Of a stretch of DNA of 37,154 nucleotides, positions 1 through 36,245 are shown one piece after another. How positions within the stretch are numbered: position 1 is the first letter of the stretch; each line of letters opens with the position of its first letter. Source of the stretch: a virus; IMG/VR virus record IMGVR_UViG_3300036785_001384, positions 1 through 37,154 of that record; one strand, given 5' to 3'. The notes beneath the pieces were generated by a model that saw only the letters and a program-made list of their open reading frames with translations, had not been told where the DNA came from and searched no databases. The position numbers were made by a program, and so were the translations under genes.

Positions 1-255
1 CGAGTATTGGAATGGGCCGCAGTTGTGAGAATTGCGCCGACCATAAACAGCTTGCCTGCGAAGTTCTCCGATAACTTCCAGCAGCGCCGCATTCTCCACA
101 GCCAGCGCATCGCGCTCAGCCTTCACCAACTCCAGCTCAGAAAACAAAGTTGCATAGTCGCCGTGTGCCACGTAGCCGCCCTCCGGGGTTTCACGCATGT
201 AAGCGAGTTCATGAGAAATGCTCAGTGAAAAGTCAGGGTTAAAGCGCTTGATCAT
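1..255 (-). CDS. Ead/Ea22-like protein, 3' end cut by window edge
   Basis: The gene reads off the left edge, so only its first 85 codons are present. The start is the ATG at 255, with a strong AGGAGG ribosome site 7 bases upstream. It overlaps the end of the ParB-like gene by 17 bases, as expected for coupled translation. The visible protein has a GGYVAHGDYA segment followed by a coiled-coil heptad region (SELELVKAERDALAVENAAL), then a charged stretch. That layout is typical of Ead/Ea22-like proteins found at the far end of enterobacterial phage P_L operons. Their function is unknown. The family name is inferred from composition and position; the reading frame itself is well supported. Confidence 0.65.
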   Translation of the reverse strand, partial: MIKRFNPDFSLSISHELAYMRETPEGGYVAHGDYATLFSELELVKAERDALAVENAALLEVIGELRRQAVYGRRNSHNCGPFQYS

Positions 256-1081
256 CGCTGGCCTCCTGGGCGGGATTCTGTTGCCGGTACTCGTTGAGGA
301 TTTTGTTTATTTCCTCTCTGGTTCCCGGCGAGAGCAGTAACACGTCACCTTCTTCCCTGAGCATTGGCGCAGCGTCGTAAAGCAGTTCGCATAATCTGCG
401 TGCGCGGGTGGCGCTGAATTGCGGAGCGATAAAAGACTTGGTGACCTTCTTTTTGCCTGCCTTTTTTGCCTTTTCGACGTCACCGGCAAGCACTTTCCCC
501 GCCGCTTCGCCGTGCTCTTTCACACGGTCTACAGCAGCATCAACGGCCACAGAGCCTTCTCTGACAAGCGTCTGAACGTCGTGATTTGCCTGGCTGAATG
601 CCAGTAGCTTATCGACCGTAGCGCGGCTCTTTCCCACCAAGGAGGCGATTTCATCAGGGGAAAGGTTGAACCCAGCCAGCTCTTTCACAACGAGCGATTG
701 CTCATAGGGAGATAGCGGCAACTGGGTATTGCTGTTCATGATGCGTGCGATGCGCTCAACATCATTCCCAGTGAATTGAATTATCTGTATGCGTTCTATC
801 GGCTTGCCAGCGTCACGGCAGCGGCTATAAGCACGGCGACGGCGGTGGCCTTCAACAACCCATACACCGCCTTCATCGCGAACCCTTACTTCAAGCGGCG
901 GCACTGGCTTGCCGCTCATCAGGTGCTGAAAGAGTTTTTCATCTTCAGCCTGAGTGTGTTCATTCTCCACACGCTTGTTAAAGCCTTCCTGAACGTGGAT
1001 GTCGTCCAGGTTCATAGTCATGCGACCATCAGGACGCTTTATCGTGCCGTCCTTTGCCATCTGCTTAAATGAGTTAGCCAT
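239..1081 (-). CDS. ParB/Srx-fold protein
   Basis: A 280-residue protein with an N-terminal ParB-like domain (about residues 20-110). It shows the PLEVRV and VVEGHRRRRAY segments that mark the ParB/sulfiredoxin nucleotide-binding pocket. A helix-turn-helix follows (SPDEIASLVGKSRATVDKLL, about 145-165). The C-terminal part is Lys-rich and probably binds DNA. The ATG at 1081 is preferred over an in-frame TTG at 1105 because GCAGGAAAAC lies just upstream. No ParA partner is present, so active partition is unlikely. Such lone ParB-like proteins occur in phage early regions as DNA-binding or nuclease proteins of unproven role. It lies downstream of the recombination genes in the P_L operon. Confidence 0.8.
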   Translation of the reverse strand: MANSFKQMAKDGTIKRPDGRMTMNLDDIHVQEGFNKRVENEHTQAEDEKLFQHLMSGKPVPPLEVRVRDEGGVWVVEGHRRRRAYSRCRDAGKPIERIQIIQFTGNDVERIARIMNSNTQLPLSPYEQSLVVKELAGFNLSPDEIASLVGKSRATVDKLLAFSQANHDVQTLVREGSVAVDAAVDRVKEHGEAAGKVLAGDVEKAKKAGKKKVTKSFIAPQFSATRARRLCELLYDAAPMLREEGDVLLLSPGTREEINKILNEYRQQNPAQEASDDQAL

Positions 1082-1135
1082 TAGTTTTCCTGCCGATTTA
1101 ATCAAGGTTGTGAAATTTAGGCGTAGAGAAGCCTT

Positions 1136-1154
1136 AGCCCTGAATGGCAGGGCT
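1136..1154 (-). other. Intergenic hairpin between SSB-like and ParB-like genes
   Basis: A perfect 7-bp inverted repeat (AGCCCTG / CAGGGCT) with a 5-base loop sits in the 92-base gap between the two genes. No T tract follows on the transcribed strand, so it is not a classical terminator. It may stabilise or process the mRNA and so separate expression of the recombination genes from the ParB-like gene. Confidence 0.35.
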
Positions 1155-1173
1155 ATGTTTTATAGAGGCCAGC

Positions 1174-1860
1174 TCAGAAGGGGATGTCGTCGTCGAAGTC
1201 TGGAACGCTTTGAGTATTCTGGTTCTGTCTGTTGGCTGATGCTTGCTGAAGGCGGGATTGGGCTGGCTGATTAGCGTTATTTCCCAGCATGCTTCTTTGT
1301 TGTTGGGGGCCTGATTGTTGAGGTGCATCATTAGCGAGCCGCTCATCTTTGTCCTTAAGAACGGCCAGCAGTTTGGCAACAGCTTCTGCAGGTGAGTTGT
1401 CGATTGCCTCTTTATAGGTTTTCCGAGTGTTAGCCCCAAAAACCTGCTTAACATCGAACTTATAACCGTCACCGCCATCATTCTTGGTATAGAGGATTTT
1501 TTGCAGTACGAAACCGATCGGCTTTCCTTCCAACTCTTTGCAGTGCAATTCAATTTCGCCTTCACCGTTTGTCAGCTCGACGGCATTTAATTGCTTCACT
1601 TTGGTGAGCCCCATAATCGCATTTATCAGGGCTGCACCATGCTTTAAAGGTTGGCCCTCGCGACCTTTGTAATTAATGCGAAGGTAATTAATTTTCCCCA
1701 CATCGGAATCGATAGAGAATTCCATAGCTTCTGACTGGGAGTCTCTGCCGGTGGTGAAGATAGCTGCGCTAATATTGCCTGCATAAGCACCAGTTTCTGA
1801 TGCTCCGCCTGCGCCAGCGGTACGCGCTGATTCGTCATCAAAAGTGAACATCGGTTGCAT
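1174..1860 (-). CDS. SSB-like single-stranded DNA-binding protein
   Basis: A 228-residue protein ending in DFDDDIPF, the acidic tip by which SSB proteins recruit partners. It is preceded by a long Gln/Asn/Ser-rich linker (about 175-220), also typical of SSBs. The N-terminal 150 residues are a beta-rich, OB-fold-compatible domain, but I cannot align it to E. coli SSB from memory. Its ATG overlaps the stop of the upstream ATPase gene (TAATG), indicating coupled translation. Position next to a Sak4-like ATPase and an exonuclease supports a role coating single strands during phage recombination or replication. An in-frame ATG three codons later is an alternative start. Confidence 0.7.
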   Translation of the reverse strand: MQPMFTFDDESARTAGAGGASETGAYAGNISAAIFTTGRDSQSEAMEFSIDSDVGKINYLRINYKGREGQPLKHGAALINAIMGLTKVKQLNAVELTNGEGEIELHCKELEGKPIGFVLQKILYTKNDGGDGYKFDVKQVFGANTRKTYKEAIDNSPAEAVAKLLAVLKDKDERLANDAPQQSGPQQQRSMLGNNANQPAQSRLQQASANRQNQNTQSVPDFDDDIPF

Positions 1861-2525
1861 TATTCGGTTACTCCGTCGTTAAGTTCATAATATTCACGGA
1901 TCGCCGCGTCAACGGCGTTCAGGTCATTGTTGATTTGAAATGAGTCGAAAAGTCCGATCGGTGATTTAACCGGGTCAGTTCCATCGGATTGCGTGGTGAA
2001 GTAATAACGGCCGTCGGCAACACCGGTTCTGAGCGCAATGGTGAACATGCCTTCTACGGTGATTTTCTCATCAAGCATTTTGCCGATGGTTTTCATTTTC
2101 ACGCGGCCACCGGGTGTTTCTTCGGTGTGCGCCAGGAAGTAGACAATAAGGCTATCGTCTGCTGATTGTGCGGCCCGTATGGCGTCCCAGGCCCCACCAC
2201 CAATCTCAGTAAACTTCTCGAATGATTTTTCACTGCGTCGGCGCATAAACTGATTGGCCATGACGTACTGAAAATCATCTACGACGACAAAGCGTTTACC
2301 TGCGCGCCTGGCGTGTTGAATAATCAGCACGATGTCGCTGGCTAAATCGGTGAAAAATACATTACCGGTTTTTTTATCGAAGTTGCGGGGTGTCCAGCCG
2401 GACGATTTAAAGGGAAGGCGCTTATTTTCAGGGTTAATGAGAAACCCCTCATCGGGGTTTAATTTCATCATACTGGCAGACTTACCAGAGCCGGAGTCGC
2501 CAAGAATTAGCACGGGTATGCCCAT
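1860..2525 (-). CDS. AAA/RecA-like phage ATPase, probable Sak4-type recombinase
   Basis: A 221-residue P-loop ATPase with Walker A GDSGSGKS at residues 9-16 and a Walker B-like strand (RFVVVDDFQYV, about 78-88). A probable sensor segment is VYFLAHTEE, and DEKITVEGMF lies near residue 157. The pattern matches the AAA_24 family of phage nucleotide-binding proteins, which includes Sak4 annealing proteins. HK620 Sak4 is known to anneal single strands with help from its cognate SSB, and here an SSB-like gene follows directly with a TAATG overlap. The start overlaps the upstream exonuclease stop (TGATG). Assignment to Sak4 rather than another AAA_24 branch is inference. Confidence 0.75.
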   Translation of the reverse strand: MGIPVLILGDSGSGKSASMMKLNPDEGFLINPENKRLPFKSSGWTPRNFDKKTGNVFFTDLASDIVLIIQHARRAGKRFVVVDDFQYVMANQFMRRRSEKSFEKFTEIGGGAWDAIRAAQSADDSLIVYFLAHTEETPGGRVKMKTIGKMLDEKITVEGMFTIALRTGVADGRYYFTTQSDGTDPVKSPIGLFDSFQINNDLNAVDAAIREYYELNDGVTE

Positions 2526-3196
2526 CAGAACATTGCTCCCATGGCCTGTTTAATGGTGTATTCCTGATCTTCGTTCAAATCCATGTTTGCTAAAGCCCAG
2601 CGGAAGTAACCGGGATCCTCAGCAGCGATATCAACGAAGGTTTTGCCCTTGTGTTTACCGAACGGCATAGCGTGTAACAGGGAAGGGCTGGTGGTAATGT
2701 CGCGCATCTGCGCAATGCTCCAGCGTGCAATGCTGTTCATGTAAAGCAGATTAGTAGCTGTGACATAGCAGTCATAAAGCGCACGGTGCGCATACAGTCC
2801 TTCCGGAACATCTGGTTTAAGTCCGAAGCGGTAGCGCAGATATTGGTTGCCATGCCGCTCTTCAGGCCACAGCTTGCGTGCCAGCTTCAGCGTGCAAATC
2901 CATGGGGCCGTAATTTGCGGAAGCTTCTCACGGTCAAAAGCGGAGTTATGTGCAACGTAGAGATCGGCACCAAGGTAGCGCTCTATCACCTCGTCAATCA
3001 GAGGGGCGTCAGCGACCATTTCCTCAGTGATGTGATGGATAGCCATAGCCTCAAAGCCGATAGGCTCAGGAGGGCGCACAAGGTCGCTCATAGGGTTGCA
3101 GATTTCGCCGTTTATGATGTCAACGCTGGCTATCTCCACCACGCCGCCCTCAAAGCTGGTGGTTTCTGTATCAATTACACGAAAGGTAGTGCTCAT
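2525..3196 (-). CDS. exoX-like: ExoX-like DEDDh 3'-5' exonuclease
   Basis: A 223-residue protein resembling E. coli exodeoxyribonuclease X (about 220 residues) along its whole length. The DEDDh motifs are visible: Asp9 and Glu11 in VIDTET, Asp in VAHNSAFD, and His/Asp in HRALYDC. The shared C-terminal segment (MPFGKHKGKTF, then DPGYFRWAL) is also present. It should degrade DNA from 3' ends in the cytoplasm. The ATG at 3196 is chosen because it reproduces the ExoX length; an ATG at 3220 and a TTG at 3226 lack a better ribosome site. It overlaps the small gene upstream by 26 bases and the ATPase downstream, making one translational chain. Confidence 0.88.
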   Translation of the reverse strand: MSTTFRVIDTETTSFEGGVVEIASVDIINGEICNPMSDLVRPPEPIGFEAMAIHHITEEMVADAPLIDEVIERYLGADLYVAHNSAFDREKLPQITAPWICTLKLARKLWPEERHGNQYLRYRFGLKPDVPEGLYAHRALYDCYVTATNLLYMNSIARWSIAQMRDITTSPSLLHAMPFGKHKGKTFVDIAAEDPGYFRWALANMDLNEDQEYTIKQAMGAMF

Positions 3197-3365
3197 GTTG
3201 AGTTCCAACAGTTCGGGCATCGGCAATGTGGTCGATTTGCGACAATCGGTGCGCTAACCGATCGAGGTCGGCAGCGTCCAGTTTATTGGCGATGCAGATA
3301 GACAGGATGAGGTACTCAGCGGCAAGCTGCTGATACGTAGGCGTTTCGACAACGATTAGTTCCAT
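3171..3365 (-). CDS. Small hypothetical protein (64 aa)
   Basis: A short acidic, mainly helical protein (YQQLAAEYLILSICIANKL, then DAADLDRLAHRLSQID). I do not recognise a family. The ATG at 3365 overlaps the stop of the preceding 46-residue gene (ATGGAACTAA), and the 3' end overlaps the exonuclease start. Its place inside a tightly overlapping chain supports a real gene. An in-frame ATG at 3389 is possible but would run well into the neighbour. The ribosome site is weak, consistent with translational coupling. Confidence 0.6.
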   Translation of the reverse strand: MELIVVETPTYQQLAAEYLILSICIANKLDAADLDRLAHRLSQIDHIADARTVGTQHEHYLSCN

Positions 3366-3496
3366 ACCGTGCCAACTGCCAGTAGGCATAGAGTGAAAAT
3401 CAACAGGAAGAAAACGTGCTTGCCCCGCCGCTTAGCAGAGAAATCTCTGCCGCTCAGGTCATACTTATGCTGAATGCGTGAATTCAGGCTTACCAT
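3356..3496 (-). CDS. Small single-span membrane protein (46 aa)
   Basis: A 46-residue protein with a basic N-terminal half ending in SAKRRGKH, followed by a hydrophobic span (VFFLLIFTLCLLAVGTVW) to the C terminus. The positive-inside rule predicts the N terminus in the cytoplasm and a C-tail anchor in the inner membrane. The ATG at 3496 has a strong GGAGG site seven bases upstream and overlaps the stop of the preceding gene (ATGGTAA). Function is unknown; small membrane proteins of phage P_L operons sometimes affect superinfection or host membrane state. Confidence 0.7.
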   Translation of the reverse strand: MVSLNSRIQHKYDLSGRDFSAKRRGKHVFFLLIFTLCLLAVGTVWN

Positions 3497-3711
3497 GCTG
3501 GCCTCCGTTGAGTGCAGCGCAAGCGATGTCGCAGGTTTTTGATGTCGTTGCGGATGGCGTAATAGTTGGCACATCGATCGGCGCACACAAGCATGTCAAC
3601 GGGTTTGAATCTTCCATCGATATAGCGTTGAACCTTCACGTATTTGCAGTCAGTTTTTGGCAGCACTTTACTGCAGTGCTCGCAGGTGGTGGTCATGGGA
3701 ATTGGTATCAT
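3490..3711 (-). CDS. Cys-rich, probable zinc-binding small protein (73 aa)
   Basis: The sequence has CEHC near residue 10, a single Cys at about 22 and CADRC near 46. This pattern suggests one zinc site with a ribbon-like fold, followed by a basic helix (IRNDIKNLRHRLR). The ATG at 3711 has an AGAGGAC ribosome site; a TTG farther upstream lacks one. It is the first gene after the terminator at 3776-3800 and the C4-like RNA, so its expression depends on readthrough or on an unseen promoter. Family and function are unknown to me; nucleic-acid binding is a guess from the metal site and charge. Confidence 0.65.
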   Translation of the reverse strand: MIPIPMTTTCEHCSKVLPKTDCKYVKVQRYIDGRFKPVDMLVCADRCANYYAIRNDIKNLRHRLRCTQRRPAW

Positions 3712-3775
3712 GACTTGTCCTCTCTGTAGAAATTCACATGGGTAAAGGCACTGCAAGCAGCGGCTTTATTGATGT

Positions 3776-3800
3776 AAAAAAGAGCCCCGGCTAGCGGGGC
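3776..3800 (-). terminator. Intrinsic terminator in the P_L transcript
   Basis: A 6-bp GC stem (GCCCCG / CGGGGC) with a 5-base loop is followed on the minus strand by TCTTTTTT. It lies 21 bases downstream of the cloverleaf RNA and 65 bases before the next gene. It would end the short P_L transcript unless readthrough or antitermination occurs. The boxA at 5007-5015 makes antitermination plausible. Confidence 0.75.
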
Positions 3801-3821
3801 AAACTGGAAGTGAGGCGGAGT

Positions 3822-3885
3822 GTTGTGGTGTCAGGAGTTGAACCTGTGGTGGGGAGGAAGCCCACCTATCACGGATACCCACAAC
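3822..3885 (-). ncRNA. Cloverleaf RNA, probable C4-type antisense RNA
   Basis: Sixty-four minus-strand bases fold into a closed cloverleaf. The closing stem is a perfect 7 bp (GTTGTGG / CCACAAC). A first small arm is TATC-CGT-GATA. The middle arm has 6 bp (GGTGGG / CCCACC) around a CTTCCTC loop, and the third arm is CAGG-TTCAACT-CCTG. It resembles a tRNA but is too short and has a 3-base first loop. The C4 antisense RNAs of P1/P7-type phages have this kind of three-armed fold. The middle loop, complementary to a GAGGAAG ribosome site, fits the C4 principle of masking translation starts. It sits in an untranslated part of the P_L transcript just before a terminator. The C4 assignment is from memory of the family's shape and is not a search result. 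Confidence 0.6.
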
Positions 3886-3928
3886 GGGGAAAGCACTGAC
3901 TGAATGCTCTCCACGTTGTGCGCCGGTA

Positions 3929-4015
3929 TTACCCGGCGATGCAAATTCCAATTACTGACCAGCAGGCGACGCAGAAGACAACCACGCCAAGCCAGACGAT
4001 TTGATTAAAGGTCAT
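3929..4015 (-). CDS. Membrane microprotein (28 aa)
   Basis: A 28-codon frame starting at the ATG at 4015 with a GAGG ribosome site eight bases upstream. Apart from a short N-terminal MTFNQ it is one hydrophobic segment containing WLGVVVFCVACWSVIGICI, so it should sit as a single span in the inner membrane. It lies between the 177-residue gene and the cloverleaf RNA, in the same orientation. It is far below usual gene-calling length. Support rests on the ribosome site, the start, and the clean transmembrane pattern. It could also act as a leader peptide controlling the downstream RNA and terminator. Confidence 0.5.
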   Translation of the reverse strand: MTFNQIVWLGVVVFCVACWSVIGICIAG

Positions 4016-4050
4016 GATTGCCTCGGTGCGCCTGCAGGGCGAGGTGGGTA

Positions 4051-4584
4051 TTAGTGGAAGCGCACGCATCCATTCAAAGATGCCATTTCGAAAGCAGCCT
4101 TCCAGTGCTGATAAAGCGTGGCGAATCGCTCACTCAACTCTTTTGAATTACCTTCAAATTTTATGAAGTCTATTGCTAATTTTTTACTCACCTCAGTTCC
4201 AATGACACCCTCGCTATCACTGAAATTGATCAACTCGTAGAAAGGTCCGCTCGCCGCCTGACAGGCACCTCCGAAATTGTTTTTTTCTTTGCGATACCCC
4301 ACGTCAAAATCGGCTACCGGATACCCAGCCATTTTTGCTAACTCATCACGCCACCAGAAGTGGCCGCCATATCCAACATCATGACCTGTGCAATCTTCGT
4401 ATGTGTAAATTGCACCATCTTCGATGTCGTCCGCCCTCCCTGGGAAATCAGGGTTAAGCCAAGTAGAAAACCATCGGCCATCTGCAAGTTCTTTGCCAGT
4501 GGCTGGGTCAATGGCATAGCCATCATCATCAAGCTGCGCCTCTGACTTTTTGATGTTTTTATAAGCCGTGATATCTAATCCCAT
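4051..4584 (-). CDS. Conserved phage hypothetical protein (177 aa)
   Basis: The protein starts MGLDITAYKN and continues with a Trp/Gly/Asp-rich middle (RWFSTWLNPDFPGR, GYGGHFWWRDEL) and a helical C terminus. It looks like a soluble phage protein seen in enterobacterial phages, but no activity is known to me. The ATG at 4584 has a GAGGG site upstream; an in-frame ATG at 4659 has none. It is transcribed from P_L, early in the operon, where phages often keep host-takeover or exclusion genes. Confidence 0.7.
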   Translation of the reverse strand: MGLDITAYKNIKKSEAQLDDDGYAIDPATGKELADGRWFSTWLNPDFPGRADDIEDGAIYTYEDCTGHDVGYGGHFWWRDELAKMAGYPVADFDVGYRKEKNNFGGACQAASGPFYELINFSDSEGVIGTEVSKKLAIDFIKFEGNSKELSERFATLYQHWKAAFEMASLNGCVRFH

Positions 4585-4766
4585 CGTGTAACCCTCTGCT
4601 GTAGTGGTTTTATGCCTACCGCCCCGCGTTGGCAGCGGCAGGGTAAATCCACTCGTCATTTTTAGGCTGATTGATGCGTTAACCGGTCGCCAGCCGGACC
4701 TACGTGATGCTTATCGCCACTTTTCCCTCACTCCGTCGCAGGGGGAACGGTCGTCCCGTTTATTCA

Positions 4767-6919: not shown

Positions 6920-7657
6920 ATGAACAACCTGATTGTGATCGAAAACACCGCTATTCGTCAAGATGCTGTGGGACGCTACTGCCTGAACGATTTGCATCGT
7001 GCTGCTGGTGGCGAGGAACGGCACAAGCCGAAATACTGGTCTGCGACCCAGCAGACGCAGGAACTTGTACAGCTTTTGACCGAGGGGGGAATTCCCCCCT
7101 CGCAAGAAAATCAACCAATTAACGTTATTCGTGGTGGTTTGGAGCAGGGGAGCTATGCCTGCAAAGAACTGGTGTATTCATATGCCATGTGGATCAGCGC
7201 AGCCTTCAACCTGAAGGTAATACGCACATTCGACGCTACCCAGACCCCATCAGCGCTTTCTGAACTCGAAATGATTGCCCGCATGGCGACAAGTGCCGCA
7301 ATTCAGCAGCGCCAAGTCAATGCTCTGCAGCTGCAAGTAAACGGTGTAACCCAGCAGATTGAAGAGATATCAACCGGTGCTATTCCTCCCGGATGGCAAA
7401 CAGTTAGAAATTTGGTAGCAGCTTCTGGCTTGTCGGATAACAAGGTGCGAGCGCTGATCAGCACTTTCCACGTTCCAAGCAAGAAGATCCCATTCAATGC
7501 CCCTGGCGGCATCCTGAGCAATGCGACTGTAGCCAAAGAGGACGATTTCCTGTCAGCCCTGGGTGAAGTTCGCAGAACGGCTACACGGGCCTGCAGAAGC
7601 AAATATTGGTATCACCCGCGCCTTGGTCGATTCGAAATGAAAGAACTCCATGACTAG
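6920..7657 (+). CDS. KilA-N domain protein, possible antirepressor or DNA-binding regulator
   Basis: A 245-residue protein with an N-terminal KilA-N domain (about residues 5-105). It shows GRYCLNDLHRAAGG, the PKYWSA segment, the INVIRGG turn and the characteristic KELVYSYAMWISAAFNLKVI block. A Gln-rich helical linker follows (about 120-150) and then a basic C-terminal domain (ATRACRSKYWYHPRLGRF). KilA-N domains bind DNA and occur in phage antirepressors and replication-region regulators. A GGAG site lies eight bases before the ATG. It contains a perfect 22-bp palindrome. The antirepressor role is only a family-level possibility. Confidence 0.8.
   Translation: MNNLIVIENTAIRQDAVGRYCLNDLHRAAGGEERHKPKYWSATQQTQELVQLLTEGGIPPSQENQPINVIRGGLEQGSYACKELVYSYAMWISAAFNLKVIRTFDATQTPSALSELEMIARMATSAAIQQRQVNALQLQVNGVTQQIEEISTGAIPPGWQTVRNLVAASGLSDNKVRALISTFHVPSKKIPFNAPGGILSNATVAKEDDFLSALGEVRRTATRACRSKYWYHPRLGRFEMKELHD
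7081..7102. repeat. Perfect 22-bp palindrome inside the KilA-N gene
   Basis: Two arms of CGAGGGGGG and its complement meet at AATT. They encode the conserved Glu-Gly-Gly-Ile-Pro-Pro turn of the domain, so part of the symmetry may come from the protein. The perfect match over 22 bp could still form a strong hairpin in RNA or a protein-binding site in DNA. Confidence 0.6.
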
Positions 7658-7832
7658 CAGCCAATCCGTCCCATTAAACCGGATTTATCTCGATGCGCGC
7701 GGTAACCGCGTGACTGTCGTTCGGTGGGATCGGGCTGTTCAGCAGGTGATTTTTATGCGAGAGGGCTACCCGTATGAATGTATGCAGCCACTTGAGCGAT
7801 TTAAAGAAAAATTTAAGCGAGTCGAAGTATGA
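7650..7832 (+). CDS. DUF4222 protein
   Basis: A 60-residue protein with the DUF4222 pattern: a basic strand-rich core (ARGNRVTVVRWD, then QVIFMREGYPYECMQPL) and a C-terminal Phe/Lys helix. The family is common in enterobacterial phage replication regions and has no established function. The ATG overlaps the KilA-N stop by eight bases, and the stop overlaps the O-like gene start, so all three are probably translated together. Confidence 0.75.
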   Translation: MTSSQSVPLNRIYLDARGNRVTVVRWDRAVQQVIFMREGYPYECMQPLERFKEKFKRVEV

Positions 7833-8854
7833 GCATGAATCTGATGGCGCAGGCTATGAGCATAAAAGTGGGCAACCCACTGCGCAAGCTGGTGCTGATC
7901 AAGATAGCCGACAACGCTAACGACAAGGGCGAGTGCTGGCCTTCCTATCAGCATGTTGCTGACCACTGCGAGTGCAGTAAAAGCGCTGTGCGGGCGCACA
8001 TTGAGGCATTGATTAAGATGGGATTAATCACAAAAGAGAACCGCTTGGGCGTGAATAACGGCAAGGGGAATACATCGAACCTTTATTACCTGACGCTGGA
8101 CACCCCTGTGTCGCCAGAAAGCATAGCCCCCTGTGCCGCCAAAAAGCATAGCCCTATGCCTCCAAAAAACACAGGGGTATGCCAGCAGGTGACACCCCCT
8201 ATGCCACCAGAAAGCACACCCCCTGTGCCAGCTGCTGGCACCAGAACCAGTCACTCTTCTGAACCTGTCATTGAACCAAAAGAAAAACCCCCTATAGCCC
8301 CCCAGGGTGAACAATCTGCGGTGGACACATCGGGCATGGCAGGGGAAGTGCTGGATTTTTTGAATCTGAAAATCAACGGCAAAACACCAAAGCGCGTCAG
8401 CACGCTGTTGGAAATTACCGAACGCCTGACGGAAGGGAACACCGTGGAAGAACTGAAGCTGGTGGCAGAACACCGCGCAAGCCTGCTGCTGAGCAATCCA
8501 GCAATGGGGCACATGCTCAGTGCCAAGATGATTTTTGACCCGGTACGTTTCAGCGGCTACCTGGCTGCGGCCAACACCTGGAACAGCCAGCGTACTCGCA
8601 AAGCTGCAATGGCCGATGCTGTCGAGCAACAACGCCAGGATCCGCCTGCTGGTGATATTCCAAAAATTGATTTTGAAGAGTCCTTTGACCGCTTAATCCG
8701 TGATGCGGCGATGCCTGCCAACGCTGCCGAAAAACGCGCTCAGCAGCAGGTACGCAAGAACGGTTTTGGAAATGTTGACGAAGGGAAAGCCCGTCAAATG
8801 TGGCGACCAATTTTAACCCGTGCCTATGCGATGACCGGGGGGCAGGCTGTATGA
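7829..8854 (+). CDS. O-like replication initiator (winged helix plus phage C-terminal domain)
   Basis: A 341-residue protein. Residues about 10-95 form a winged helix like those of phage O proteins (CWPSYQHVADHCECSKSAVR, then MGLITKENR). A low-complexity Pro/Ser/Thr linker (about 90-160) is encoded by iteron DNA. Residues about 175-245 match the conserved phage C-terminal domain Phg_2220_C (VLDFLNLKINGK, then PVRFSGYL). It should bind the iterons in its own gene and recruit host replication machinery. No separate helicase loader (P- or DnaC-like) follows, so this protein may do that job. The GTG/ATG-rich start overlaps the DUF4222 stop. Confidence 0.8.
   Translation: MSMNLMAQAMSIKVGNPLRKLVLIKIADNANDKGECWPSYQHVADHCECSKSAVRAHIEALIKMGLITKENRLGVNNGKGNTSNLYYLTLDTPVSPESIAPCAAKKHSPMPPKNTGVCQQVTPPMPPESTPPVPAAGTRTSHSSEPVIEPKEKPPIAPQGEQSAVDTSGMAGEVLDFLNLKINGKTPKRVSTLLEITERLTEGNTVEELKLVAEHRASLLLSNPAMGHMLSAKMIFDPVRFSGYLAAANTWNSQRTRKAAMADAVEQQRQDPPAGDIPKIDFEESFDRLIRDAAMPANAAEKRAQQQVRKNGFGNVDEGKARQMWRPILTRAYAMTGGQAV
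8101..8230 (+). repeat. Iteron array, probable phage replication origin
   Basis: Six related units carry a CCCC[T]RTGCC core. Their TG[T/A]G or TATG cores begin near 8106, 8131, 8154, 8177, 8199 and 8223, so the period is about 22-25 bp. Several units share the longer stretch CCAGAAAGCA[TC]A. Because the spacing (25, 23, 23, 22, 24) breaks the codon phase while DNA similarity is kept, selection appears to act on DNA rather than protein. Lambda and P22 also place origin iterons inside the initiator gene. Confidence 0.7.
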
Positions 8855-31539: not shown

Positions 31540-32207
31540 GTGAAACCAAATACCAAAAACTCATCACGTCTTATAACAAGCACAAGCCGAAATTTTACGA
31601 CCATATCTCTCTTATCACCCAACCCCTGATAGACGTGCAGAATGCCACAGCAAAGCTGATCCCCGACTTCGACCTGGATACGGCAGTGGGTGCGCAACTG
31701 GATGCGGTCGGGCTGTGGGTGGGAATAGGGCGGAAGATAGCGACGCCGATCACCGGCGTTTACTTCTCGCTGGATGATGAGGAACTGGGTTTTGATGCTG
31801 GCATATGGCGCGGCCGGTTCGACGCCGGCGGCTTCACTGAGTTGGATGATGATACCTATCGAACCATCATCCGCGCGAAAATCGCCGCCAACCACTGGGA
31901 CGGCACAACCGAGACGCTCAGTGACGTGTATCAGATTATTTTTCCGGATGGAAAAACGAAGATTTTCGCCGTCGATAACTTCGATATGACGATGTCCGTT
32001 TACATCACTGGCGACAAGATAACGCCGGCCATGAAAGCGGTGATCGAGCTGGGTTATCTGGACATCAAACCGTCAACCGTCCGCATCAAAAATTACACCA
32101 TCACCACCGAATCGGGGCCGCTGTTTGGCTTCGACATCGACAACGAATTTATCTCAGGCTTCGATAAGGGCGCCTGGGGAACATTATTGGGAACATCAAA
32201 TGGCTAA
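31536..32207 (+). CDS. DUF2612 baseplate/tail protein
   Basis: A 223-residue DUF2612 protein: KLITSYNKHKPKFYDHISLI, LDAVGLWVGIGRKIATPIT, then EELGFDAGIWRGRFDAGGFT and YRTIIRAKIAANHWDGT. It plays the part of P2 gpI, connecting the J-like wedge to the fibres. It ends eight bases inside the first fibre gene. Confidence 0.88.
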   Translation: MSETKYQKLITSYNKHKPKFYDHISLITQPLIDVQNATAKLIPDFDLDTAVGAQLDAVGLWVGIGRKIATPITGVYFSLDDEELGFDAGIWRGRFDAGGFTELDDDTYRTIIRAKIAANHWDGTTETLSDVYQIIFPDGKTKIFAVDNFDMTMSVYITGDKITPAMKAVIELGYLDIKPSTVRIKNYTITTESGPLFGFDIDNEFISGFDKGAWGTLLGTSNG

Positions 32208-32796
32208 GAACGAATTTTTACCCTTCGGCACAGCAGCAAATGCTAACGTTATACCGAATGCGGATTACCAGGCGCTGCCTGCACGTGTGTCGGGTTTTGG
32301 GTCGGGTGTGGCCAAGTCAGAGGAACTGAACTCGGTCTGGCGGCAGGCATCCACCATCGCCAGCGTTGTAGCGCAATTTATCGTGAACAAATCCGGGATG
32401 GATGCCCTGGATAACGGCGATACAGCGGGGCTGTTGGATAATCTGGAGCTGGCATTTGCTGCCCAAGCTAAAGAAGCATTACCATTTAAGCAATCGTTAG
32501 AAGATATTGGTAGCCAAGAATTACCATCCGGCCTAATCATTAAGTGGGGTAGTGGAATAACAAATTCAGATGGAAATATTCATGTGGTTTTTACTTCGCC
32601 ATTTCCTAATAGATTATTTCAAGTTATACCTTCCCCCACTAACACAAATAATTCAAACCTATTTATAACCGCCAATGTTGACAATACAAATTATAGAGTT
32701 TCAGGATTTGACGCAAGTACTTGTGAGTTCAACCTTGGAACAGGAATAGCAAAGAAAAAAGGGTGTGGATTTACATGGTTTGCAATAGGGGTATAG
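32200..32796 (+). CDS. Short tail fibre, gp53-like C-terminal domain
   Basis: A 198-residue protein starting at the ATG at 32200. The N-terminal part (FLPFGTAANANVIPNADYQA) attaches to the baseplate as in similar short fibres. The C-terminal domain (LPSGLIIKWGSG, then TSPFPNRLFQVI and GCGFTWFAIGV) is the gp53-like tip domain of phage fibres. From about 32475 the base composition becomes markedly A/T-rich, matching the acyltransferase gene downstream. This suggests the tip domain and the moron arrived together. Confidence 0.78.
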   Translation: MAKNEFLPFGTAANANVIPNADYQALPARVSGFGSGVAKSEELNSVWRQASTIASVVAQFIVNKSGMDALDNGDTAGLLDNLELAFAAQAKEALPFKQSLEDIGSQELPSGLIIKWGSGITNSDGNIHVVFTSPFPNRLFQVIPSPTNTNNSNLFITANVDNTNYRVSGFDASTCEFNLGTGIAKKKGCGFTWFAIGV

Positions 32797-32815
32797 CAGG
32801 GTTACCCCTGCTTTA
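32795..32815. terminator. Shared hairpin terminator between fibre and acyltransferase
   Basis: AGCAGGG-TTAC-CCCTGCT is a perfect 7-bp stem containing the stop codons of both convergent genes. On the plus strand it is followed by TTTAAAATT, a weak T tract; on the minus side there is no clear tract. It probably separates the two transcripts. Confidence 0.6.
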
Positions 32816-33908
32816 AAATTGATTGGCTGGCACTTGCATGCATGGCTTTATTTCGAATGTATTTTTGGACTCTAGCTTCGAATTGATAATGGGTTAGTAA
32901 GCTTAGTGGTATTAATACTGCCATGAATAAAACCATTGACTGAGTTGAGTAAAATACATCACGACTATAACCCAAAGCATCTGCGCACAATGCGAATGTT
33001 ATCTGCAAGGGGAAGTGTATAAGATATGAGGAGTAGCTCATATCTCCAATCCAGCGTAGTCTTAGAAATAATTTGTTGCACGACGGGTTAGTACTTAAAG
33101 TGGTAAAAAATGATATTATAGAAGTGAAGCCAAATGCCGTAACTAAAAATATATTATTCACCTCGAAGTATATGAGGGTTGTCCAAGTTGTGATAACAAC
33201 AAAAAGAGTTATAAAGTGCGTTTTTTGACCGGCAACTTTAATTAGGGATTGGGTAAATATGTACGTCGCCGCCCCGCAAAAAAATGAGAAAATCCCAATC
33301 CCTATTTTATAGTTTATTGTAAATATAACATACCCCATAAGGATGAATACAGGGATGAGGGACAATCTAAGTCTGCCGAACAAGCACGATAAGAAGAAAA
33401 TGCCATATAGCATCACTTCTATTGATACTGACCAAACGGGAGCATTAAAAGACCAACCCGTTTCAAATCCCCATGCTGGAATCATTAGTATATTTAGCAT
33501 TGCATGATAAAGGTCATTGTCTTGGTAAACGAAATATAAGTTGTGATAGTTTTTATATACAACCTGCAAAATAAAAACCACAAAAAATGTTAAGATGTAT
33601 AAAGGGTACAGCCTGCTTATGCGATTTAAAGTGAATTTTTTTGCGCTTATTTTTCTTTTGGATATATCGCTAGAGTATAACCAATAAAAGATGAATCCTG
33701 AGATGCAAAAGAATAACTCAACCGCAGCATCGCCATGTTTATATAGAAGGCTGAATAAATAATAAAAGGGTTGTCTTTCAGCCTGGAAATCTTTTGGCGC
33801 ATTGCCGAAGTAAAAGAAGTGCTGCCAGTGCCAAAACACTACAGCAAGAGCTGCCAGCCCTCGCAAGACGTCAAGGGAGTATATTTTTTCTGGTAAAACT
33901 CTACTCAT
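32802..33908 (-). CDS. Acyltransferase 3 (OafA/Oac-like O-acetyltransferase)
   Basis: A 368-residue integral membrane acyltransferase. The family hallmarks are SLDVLRGLAALAVVFWHW (His of the active-site RxxxxxH/HxxW region, residues 11-28), RISRLYPLYIL, and about ten hydrophobic spans. Such proteins acetylate O-antigen or other surface sugars and, when carried by prophages (Sf6 oac is the classic case), change the receptor and block reinfection. It is on the opposite strand to the late genes, has low GC unlike its neighbours, and has its own spacer. This is a typical lysogenic-conversion moron. The acceptor sugar is unknown. Confidence 0.92.
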   Translation of the reverse strand: MSRVLPEKIYSLDVLRGLAALAVVFWHWQHFFYFGNAPKDFQAERQPFYYLFSLLYKHGDAAVELFFCISGFIFYWLYSSDISKRKISAKKFTLNRISRLYPLYILTFFVVFILQVVYKNYHNLYFVYQDNDLYHAMLNILMIPAWGFETGWSFNAPVWSVSIEVMLYGIFFLSCLFGRLRLSLIPVFILMGYVIFTINYKIGIGIFSFFCGAATYIFTQSLIKVAGQKTHFITLFVVITTWTTLIYFEVNNIFLVTAFGFTSIISFFTTLSTNPSCNKLFLRLRWIGDMSYSSYLIHFPLQITFALCADALGYSRDVFYSTQSMVLFMAVLIPLSLLTHYQFEARVQKYIRNKAMHASASQSILKQG

Positions 33909-34025
33909 TTAATTACCTGGATTATTTATACAGACTAACAAAAATCGATGTCTGTTTGTATTAGGAATCATCGCCAATTGTACTATTAAACAGTCAATGA
34001 GCTCCATCTTTTCGGAGAATTATCT
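33909..34025 (-). promoter_or_regulatory. Spacer with likely promoter for the acyltransferase
   Basis: On the minus strand TATAAA (33930-33925) lies 17 bp after AGACAT, a fair -10 with a poor -35. An inverted repeat ACAGAC / GTCTGT (33930-33935, 33950-33955) overlaps it and could be an operator. The acyltransferase ATG follows with AGG spacing of eight. The spacer also holds the CGGAG ribosome site for the spike gene on the other strand. Confidence 0.35.
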
Positions 34026-36245
34026 ATGTCAAGTGAAGGATTGCCAGTCGATGGCGTTGTTAGTGTGGGTGTTGATCTTGGCCCTCGCAGTACGGCACAA
34101 GCCACTGACGTGGCAAAAAGTAGCCTATCAGCCGACAGCGCTGCTGATTCGGCAGATGCTGCATTCAAGTTTAGCCGTCAGGCCAAAGACGCAGTATCGG
34201 GAGCTGATGCCGCTGCTGACCGCGCAGAATCCGCAGCAGATAGCGCTCAGAACATCGCCGACGCGAATACGTATTACATTACCCCAAGCGATCCAGACGG
34301 CACTATCGCTGGTGTTGCTGGCACGCCTGATGGGAAAATGTTCCGCGTTGCAATTAAGGACGACTCTGGTACGCCGATAATTTTTAAATACTATAAAAAC
34401 GCCGGTGGAACCGCTGAGTATATTAATGCAGAGGCAAGTGCGCGTCTGATATCTCAGATGGAGCAAACAGTGGATTATATGAAACTGATTGCGCCACAAG
34501 GACAAGCAAACACACTCAGCGGCTATCAAGTCATGTTTACTGACTTTACTGGAAAGAACGGACTCTTTGGCGTTAACGATAATGGTGGGTTTGAAGTTTT
34601 AGGCGTCGATGGGGATTTGCAGGACTATTTAACTAACTTAGTCTCTGCGTCATTTTCCAGTAAAATATCTGGCTATCAAGTCGTTATTTTTGCTCAAGAT
34701 TTGAAATCTGTTATTTTCGCTATTGATGATGATGGTGGGCTGTGGCTGCCTGGCATGAATGAACCTGTTCAAGATGCCATCGCTGCTAGCGGGCCATCAT
34801 TTGTGCGCCCATACAATGGCGTTCCTGCACTATTTGCGGACAAAACAGCAGAGACGCCTTTGTGGCACCGCGCGGCGGTGGTTACCGCGACACCGATCAC
34901 TCGTGACGGCGTGAGCTTTATGTTTGACGCGTCTGGAACTCTCAAGTCGGGGTTAATGCCAATCCGCTGGCCAGCAAATGAAGTCTTTGCACAACCGCGA
35001 GAGATCCCATCCTCTGGGCGTGAAATGCACCTTTTTGCCGGGCGCGGTCAGTCTCTGCGTGTTGGAGGTGGCTCGAGGGTGTCATCGTTTAACCAGATTT
35101 ATGCAGGGCACCTTTTGACGTTTTCCGGGGCTGGTCAAGATCGTGGCGCTCAGGTTCCTACGGATGGCCCTGTGACTGATGAAACGCTTGCTGGATTTAC
35201 CGACGCTCAGCCGTTACCTTCCCGGCAAAACTGCCAGTCCCCGGCGTTGTATCACATCGCTAGACGCCATACTGAGCGCGGCGTTGCCCCAGCCGACATA
35301 CCGATCATGGTCACACGTATGGATGCAAAATCGGGCACGGGTTACGCCGGGCTGAAAAAAGGGACGCAGCCATACATCGATGGCCTCACATCCTGCCAGG
35401 CGTTTGTGAATCGAGCGAGAGCTATCGGCAAAACCCCTATCGTTAAGTGCGTTGGAATCACACACGGCGAAGATGATGCAGGCAGCGGCACAGTAACTAA
35501 ATTCGGCGACTATAAAGCAATGCTGGAAGAGTGGGTGAACGACACTAACCCTGATCTGAAAGCGATAACCGGCCAGTCGAGCAGTATTCTGTGGGACGTT
35601 GACCAGATGGGTGGCTGGGTTCGCACTGTGTGGGAGCCAACCGGGCGGACGGTGTACGGCGACATCGTGTCGATCGATCAGTGGGAGTTCATGCTTTCCC
35701 GTTCCGACGTGATTATGAGTTGTCCGAAATTCCCGCTCAACCGGATGTTCCCCTCAGACTTCCAGCACCTGACAAATGTCGGCTACGCGGTGCTCGGGGA
35801 GTACCAGGGCCAGGCGGAAGACTACACGATCTATGACCCAGCAGGTTCACGCTGGAAACCTGTACAGCCTGAGACCATTATCAAAGTCAATGAAAACACT
35901 TTCGATATAGGGCTTCACTCATCTCTGGGCGGCGCGCTGCGTTTCAACACTTCGATCGGAACAGCACCTAACCAAGGTATTGATCTGGGCCTGCAATCAA
36001 CCACTATCACAGCAGTTACTCAGCAAGCTGACAGAACGTTCAGAATTGTCACGAACGCGCCGCCGGCCGCGGGAGACTGGTTCCGATTTGGATTTAACGC
36101 AAATGACCCGAAAACGATCAATGGCGTCACTTTCATTCATCCGCTTGTAAATATCAGCGATGACTCTCAAATAGCGAGTGAAAACGTATCCGGCCTGAAA
36201 TTGGTAAACTGGTGCGTGGGTTCTCGAATTTTTATCCCTGCATAA
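34026..36245 (+). CDS. Tailspike with SGNH/SASA-like esterase domain
   Basis: A 739-residue virion spike. Residues 1-80 are an Ala/Ser/Asp-rich coiled N-terminal anchor. Two related segments follow at about 165-200 and 215-251, both starting SGYQV and containing DDGG/DNGG. From about 330 comes an SGNH-hydrolase-like domain. It has a GQSLRVGG block with candidate nucleophile Ser343, THGEDD (480-485, like the GExD block of sialate O-acetylesterases), and DFQH with Asp578 and His581 as in the final DxxH block. The pattern predicts removal of O-acetyl groups from a surface polysaccharide during adsorption. The C-terminal 150 residues are beta-rich. Enzyme activity is inferred. Confidence 0.78.
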   Translation: MSSEGLPVDGVVSVGVDLGPRSTAQATDVAKSSLSADSAADSADAAFKFSRQAKDAVSGADAAADRAESAADSAQNIADANTYYITPSDPDGTIAGVAGTPDGKMFRVAIKDDSGTPIIFKYYKNAGGTAEYINAEASARLISQMEQTVDYMKLIAPQGQANTLSGYQVMFTDFTGKNGLFGVNDNGGFEVLGVDGDLQDYLTNLVSASFSSKISGYQVVIFAQDLKSVIFAIDDDGGLWLPGMNEPVQDAIAASGPSFVRPYNGVPALFADKTAETPLWHRAAVVTATPITRDGVSFMFDASGTLKSGLMPIRWPANEVFAQPREIPSSGREMHLFAGRGQSLRVGGGSRVSSFNQIYAGHLLTFSGAGQDRGAQVPTDGPVTDETLAGFTDAQPLPSRQNCQSPALYHIARRHTERGVAPADIPIMVTRMDAKSGTGYAGLKKGTQPYIDGLTSCQAFVNRARAIGKTPIVKCVGITHGEDDAGSGTVTKFGDYKAMLEEWVNDTNPDLKAITGQSSSILWDVDQMGGWVRTVWEPTGRTVYGDIVSIDQWEFMLSRSDVIMSCPKFPLNRMFPSDFQHLTNVGYAVLGEYQGQAEDYTIYDPAGSRWKPVQPETIIKVNENTFDIGLHSSLGGALRFNTSIGTAPNQGIDLGLQSTTITAVTQQADRTFRIVTNAPPAAGDWFRFGFNANDPKTINGVTFIHPLVNISDDSQIASENVSGLKLVNWCVGSRIFIPA

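Follow-up and report, generated by a model that had tools for sequence, protein, structure and literature searches.

A cargo slot for glycan-modifying genes beside a predicted acetyl-esterase tailspike in a temperate phage

We analysed a stretch of viral DNA of 37,154 nucleotides (the window; IMG/VR record IMGVR_UViG_3300036785_001384, positions 1 to 37,154) in which an acyltransferase-3 gene on the minus strand lies next to the gene of a tailspike with an SGNH/SASA esterase fold. The two look like neighbours in one cargo slot, not a matched pair—the position before the spike is an exchangeable slot for glycan-modifying genes, and acyltransferase and spike are exchanged independently. An earlier note on this DNA had proposed a paired write/erase module, in which the lysogen acetylates its surface sugar and the virion removes the acetyl groups again. 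On balance we think it probable that the acyltransferase is independently exchanged conversion cargo beside an acetyl-esterase spike, and that the two are not matched to one acetyl group. Here we describe the slot and the reassortment of its contents, the two enzymes, and the phage and its known relatives, and then weigh the competing explanations.

Independent exchange in a slot before the spike

The survey of related loci was built on viral contigs, because genome scans gave little to work with: a genome-contig scan returned two relatives only, and few copies were present in 392 genomes of one family. Loci were sampled blind to the spike in two backbones, using the gene upstream of the slot as anchor (in the window, a gp53-like tail-fibre gene), and further loci were sampled through the common N-terminus of the spikes. 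The adjacency of acyltransferase and SGNH spike to which the earlier note drew attention recurs in other phages. It had seemed rare, with just 4 of some 45 close relatives of the spike having an acyltransferase beside them; this view was abandoned when slot-based sampling showed that the count reflects backbone type.

Acyltransferase-3 genes in the slot, which extends from the fibre gene to the spike, fall into at least 13 families at 40% identity. Acetyl-type cargo as a whole comprises 24 distinct genes at 90% identity and 15 families at 40% (13 of the 15 are acyltransferase-3), and includes hexapeptide acetyltransferases (L012, L020, L111, L179). A methyltransferase (L187) and a GT25 glycosyltransferase (L195) are rare cargo, and with their discovery the idea of a slot reserved for acetyl chemistry was rejected. 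Pfam verified the acyltransferase-3, hexapeptide transferase, SASA esterase, methyltransferase, and GT25 cargo. The cargo lies mostly on the minus strand, and the slot is without such genes in all sampled lambda-like backbones and in those with the N-terminus MSNNGLPV. Most spikes behind the slot are SGNH proteins, which fall into several lineages (GQS/SASA, GDSW, and GDSL types); a few are beta-helix spikes or plain fibres (L102, L106, L131, L173, L190/L193, L194), their fold class being judged by eye. Four further loci taken for non-SGNH spikes (L014, L015, L090, L116) had been wrongly classed, as Pfam finds GDSL lipase domains in them.

Acyltransferase and spike similarity are uncorrelated across the 22 loci that carry both genes (Mantel rho 0.08, p 0.16), with identities scaled by aligned length. 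Near-identical spikes stand beside very different acyltransferases: spikes 97% identical with acyltransferases at 17% (L093/L096), 95% with 22% (L120/L125), 93% with 15% (L176/L180), and 87% with 14% (L086/L015). The reverse also occurs—acyltransferases 85% identical are found beside unrelated spikes (L093/L129, L120/L015). The acyltransferase family of the window itself illustrates both situations; its member in L006 (65% identical) has a related spike beside it (head 91%), and its member in L167 (64%) an unrelated GDSL spike (head 5%). The same SGNH spikes are found in other backbones without an acyltransferase, and acyltransferases also stand beside non-SGNH proteins (a beta-helix spike in L102, a fibre in L190/L193). 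In L068-L070, relatives of the window transferase are found where the tail-fibre genes end, and the fetched DNA contains no SGNH spike. Since near-identical spikes accompany unrelated transferases and the reverse, with no correlation overall, a dedicated write/erase pair as first proposed is not supported.

Several other slot contents deserve mention in their own right. One contig (L092, the same as L188) carries, at 3947-4732 on the minus strand, a SASA-family esterase (PF03629, E=1e-42) that seems to have an N-terminal export signal and lies next to a GDSL-type spike; this is a possible lysogen-encoded deacetylase that replaces an acetyltransferase. In L094, a secreted-looking protein of 410 residues (3104-4333, plus strand) precedes a GDSL spike; it appears beta-helix-like by eye and has no Pfam match. 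Another backbone (L252) has an exported BNR-repeat, sialidase-like protein after the fibre gene (7137-8183, minus strand), which is another type of glycan-modifying cargo. Finally, an IS1 transposase fragment lies beside the acyltransferase of L170 (6878-7381, minus strand; same contig as L019), where the following spike runs to the contig end.

Two predicted enzymes of acetyl chemistry

The features of the locus are collected in Table 1. Both reading frames are open throughout, and the earlier description of a low-GC acyltransferase-3 gene on the minus strand beside a tailspike gene is borne out: guanine-cytosine (GC) content is 36.9% in the acyltransferase gene and 52.3% in the window. The acyltransferase gene converges with the upstream fibre gene, whose end lies 5 bp from the acyltransferase stop codon; relative to the spike gene it is divergently oriented, with 117 bp in between. 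The fibre reading frame was called from a TTG at 32125; the ATG at 32200 is its likely start.

Table 1. Features of the slot and its surroundings, in window coordinates
Feature	Position	Strand	Basis
Upstream gp53-like tail-fibre gene, boundary of the cargo slot	32200..32796	+	PF21882 E=2e-14; PHROG 11303
Acyltransferase-3 (predicted O-acetyltransferase), lysogenic-conversion gene, 368 aa, integral membrane	32802..33908	-	PF01757; PHROG 3333; motifs; GC
AT-rich divergent intergenic region, putative acyltransferase promoter site	33909..34025		32% GC
Tailspike, 739 aa	34026..36245	+	ORF; PHROG 4201
Common N-terminal virion-side domain, about residues 65-150	34218..34475	+	precedes many different receptor-binding domains
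SGNH/SASA esterase domain, about residues 341-600 (Ser343, Gly481-Glu482-x-Asp484, His581)	35046..35825	+	model, Foldseek, conservation
Partner gene, 298 aa	36258..37154	+	directly follows the spike family in every sufficiently long relative

The acyltransferase matches PF01757 (E=2.1e-24) over the whole membrane domain, with residues 9-338 aligned to profile positions 1-319 of 326, and the PHROG 3333 family 'O-acetyltransferase' (E=4e-38). It has the family motifs R-x10-H (R16, H27), located in the first membrane segment, and R..R..P.Y, a loop that here reads RISRLYPLY; R16, H27, R96, and R99 are kept in at least 88% of 17 aligned acyltransferase-3 members. There is no fused SGNH domain. A search of the PDB with the acyltransferase found nothing, PADLOC gave no match for either it or the spike, and the protein has no close match to any phage transferase of known function. 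From its family membership, the product is an acyltransferase-3 that probably adds acetyl to host surface sugars.

The spike matches the PHROG 4201 tail-fibre family (E=1.5e-66). A Pfam scan of the spike gave no match, thus neither the SASA nor the GDSL profile, and neither phmmer nor the spike profile found anything meaningful among PDB sequences; a comparison of folds was therefore required. An alignment of 23 spike homologues served as input for an AlphaFold2 model of the last 485 residues (255-739), which has an SGNH alpha/beta fold at high confidence (predicted local distance difference test, pLDDT, 90.6; predicted template modelling score, pTM, 0.91), followed by a C-terminal beta domain that extends from the esterase domain to residue 739. 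In Foldseek, the best solved neighbour is the tailspike of cyanophage Pan3 (E=2.5e-23), and the other matches are a sialic acid O-acetylesterase (SIAE, 8f9o, E=4e-10), an acetylxylan esterase (1zmb, E=7e-8), a 'diluted triad' deacetylase (E=1e-6), and a CE20 acetylesterase (9ega, E=7e-6); the solved structures matched are 9vyh, 8f9o, 1zmb, 9h4u, and 9ega. Among viral structures, the fibre of Salmonella phage Vi06 is one of its neighbours. The suggestion of an SGNH fold has thus survived structure prediction.

Conservation agrees with the fold for most of the blocks that the earlier note had picked out (GQSL with Ser343, HGEDD, and DFQH). The Gly-Gln-Ser343 nucleophile block is invariant in 23/23 homologues, and Ser343, Gly481-Glu482, Asp484, and His581 are identical in all of them, down to 20% identity. 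The catalytic Asp of the DxxH motif did not hold up as a family feature—Asp578 is present in the window, and the aligned position is D in 11/23 homologues; in several of the others, a D lies two residues further off or there is an insertion. As no Pfam profile matches, membership of the SGNH/SASA group rests on the fold together with the catalytic residues. The model suggests that the tailspike is of the SGNH/SASA esterase type and probably removes acetyl from surface sugars.

The phage, its receptor cassette, and known relatives

The window has the gene set of a temperate phage, including a CI/S24 repressor, KilA-N, ParB-like, Sak4, SSB, O-like replication, Q antiterminator, terminase, and baseplate J genes. 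Its head genes are about 80% identical to those of Hafnia phage yong1, Salmonella phage SEN34, and Citrobacter phage Omnitron; a search of E. coli genomes gave no match. The left arm (239-3226, minus strand) carries genes for a ParB-like protein, SSB, a Sak4 annealing protein, and a DnaQ-like exonuclease; the ParB-like gene would be a candidate for partition if the prophage were plasmid-like.

Wherever the contig of a relative is long enough, a homologue of the partner gene follows the spike, in lambda-like, P2-like, Mu-like, and other backbones. The partner is predicted to be a ConA-like jelly roll (pLDDT 85.7), a generic lectin-type fold, and its homologue p28 was detected in virions of Serratia phage BZS1 (PMC7556043). 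The partner is strictly linked to the spike family across unrelated tail types and may be a second adhesin, lectin, or spike cap.

The closest described arrangement is that of Serratia phage vB_SspM_BZS1 (MT843275). Here an opposite-strand acyltransferase-3 (p24) lies directly upstream of a homologous SASA-type spike (p27, about 28% identity) and the homologous partner p28; however, the backbone is Mu-like, the acyltransferase is distant (27% over part of the protein), and its acyltransferase and spike are separated by two additional small genes, one of them for an XRE regulator. In HHpred the spike homologue matches pfam03629 at 99.9%, and mass spectrometry identified it as a virion protein; related Serratia genomes hold prophages with non-homologous acyltransferases (PMC7556043). 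The 2020 study of this phage also remarked on the acyltransferase beside a deacetylase-like spike and stated the same write/erase hypothesis as speculation (PMC7556043), so the module was not a new idea. In the open-licence literature we found no paper that reports a slot-level survey with a reassortment test, and this is what the present analysis appears to add.

Other relatives share one half of the arrangement. Pseudomonas phage VW-6B (MF975721) has a spike head 46% identical to that of the window, with the catalytic residues kept and the same partner gene; in contrast to the window phage, it has a siphovirus-type tail, and no acyltransferase adjoins its spike. An SGNH/SASA-type esterase head that acts on O-acetyl groups of surface polysaccharide is likewise found in the Vi-phage tailspikes and the G7C gp63.1 deacetylase, for which esterase activity is proven; the window spike would act in the same manner. 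The Vi phages and G7C are lytic and, to our knowledge, have no neighbouring acyltransferase. The window acyltransferase shares with Oac of phage Sf6 and other serotype-converting enzymes that it is an acyltransferase-3 encoded by a phage, with a gene oriented against the late genes (for Sf6, PMC7556043); the Sf6 spike, however, is a beta-helix endorhamnosidase, not an esterase. Klebsiella prophages also have SGNH receptor-binding proteins on temperate phages, with acetyltransferase genes frequent in the same prophages. Two of these spikes have proven esterase activity, hydrolysing p-nitrophenyl acetate, and acetylation and deacetylation are discussed as a layer of competition; as far as the searched text of that source goes, it gives prevalence, not an adjacent exchangeable slot (PMC13123978).

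Competing explanations and their meaning

In the reading that we favour, the virion tailspike would recognise an acetylated surface polysaccharide through its SGNH/SASA acetyl-esterase head and probably de-O-acetylate it, and the jelly-roll partner would accompany it on the virion. The opposite-strand acyltransferase-3, carried in a slot for lysogenic-conversion genes that separates the upstream fibre gene from that of the spike, would be expressed in the lysogen and acetylate its surface polysaccharide; this would alter the receptor seen by other phages and may exclude rivals. Both enzymes would share a chemical currency, O-acetyl on surface glycan, but be acquired and exchanged independently, and most likely they do not act on one common acetyl group.

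Some observations pull the other way. Acetyl cargo and SGNH spikes tend to co-occur: hand counts in the Mu-like spike-blind set give 13 SGNH spikes with acetyl cargo and 1 without, and 1 beta-helix spike with and 2 without (Fisher p 0.063), where p changes to 0.02 or to 0.11 according to how one ambiguous spike (L171) is classed. Pooled with the second backbone, the counts become 18/3/2/3 (p 0.062), with few non-SGNH spikes and related sequences among them. This association is suggestive at most, and leaves room for a functional link. Additionally, one and the same position might be acetylated by acyltransferases of unrelated families, and therefore reassortment of sequences does not strictly exclude matched chemistry. 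Promoter-like matches in 32500-34300 are also no more numerous than in shuffled sequence, with no acyltransferase promoter above chance.

A matched module—in which the prophage acetylates the glycan to exclude rivals and the spike removes the same acetyl, so that adsorption to acetylated hosts is kept—seems unlikely to us, although the two enzyme types are adjacent in the window, L006, L003 (BZS1), L032, and many other loci, and the idea has been put forward as a hypothesis for BZS1 as described above. Two loci speak for it and make a natural case on which self-exclusion can be judged: L006 and L008 (UViG 2859336585_000003 and _000002) appear, from IMG/VR naming, to be two prophages of one isolate (2859336585), with spike heads 95% identical and the acyltransferase only in L006. 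There is therefore no obvious bar by the transferase to phages that carry this spike, though this depends on the order of infection. The free combination of spikes with unrelated transferases, and the same spikes in backbones without one, argue against the module. The opposite proposal, that the acetyl blocks the phage's own spike too, sparing virions from being wasted on lysogens as well as excluding rivals, has a precedent in Oac of Sf6, and free reassortment would fit a transferase selected for its blocking effect rather than to feed the spike. We nevertheless judge it improbable: the apparent co-residence of L006 and L008 sits poorly with it, within the same limit on infection order, and the Sf6 spike itself tolerates several O-acetyl patterns (PMC6116271).

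It may also be that the genes are coincidental neighbours, brought together because morons usually insert near tail-fibre genes and SGNH is the commonest spike type, with the transferase acting on an unrelated glycan. The base rates of both are high; for Klebsiella prophages, the source cited above puts acetyltransferases at 5-30% of prophages per K-locus and SGNH among the most common receptor-binding domains (PMC13123978). The acyltransferases beside non-SGNH spikes and fibres, the L068-L070 loci, and an association p of only about 0.06 also fit chance. However, identified slot cargo is almost all glycan-modifying, and hence this is not a random moron site; coincidence is conceivable, yet we doubt it. 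Independent exchange of conversion cargo beside an acetyl-esterase spike remains the account that we prefer.

It is also rather unlikely, in our estimate, that temperate enterobacterial phages keep a dedicated recombination slot before the esterase spike for swapping glycan-modifying cargo, mostly acetyltransferases, and that in some of them, the window phage included, the transferase writes the acetyl that the spike erases; if they do, lysogens would advertise a receptor usable mainly by their own kind. Adjacency alone should not be taken as a functional pair. The locus would add a clear case of temperate phages competing via the acetylation state of host surface sugars, and the swapping of more than 12 acyltransferase families beside esterase spikes that vary independently of them offers a testable way to tell matched chemistry from general receptor masking.

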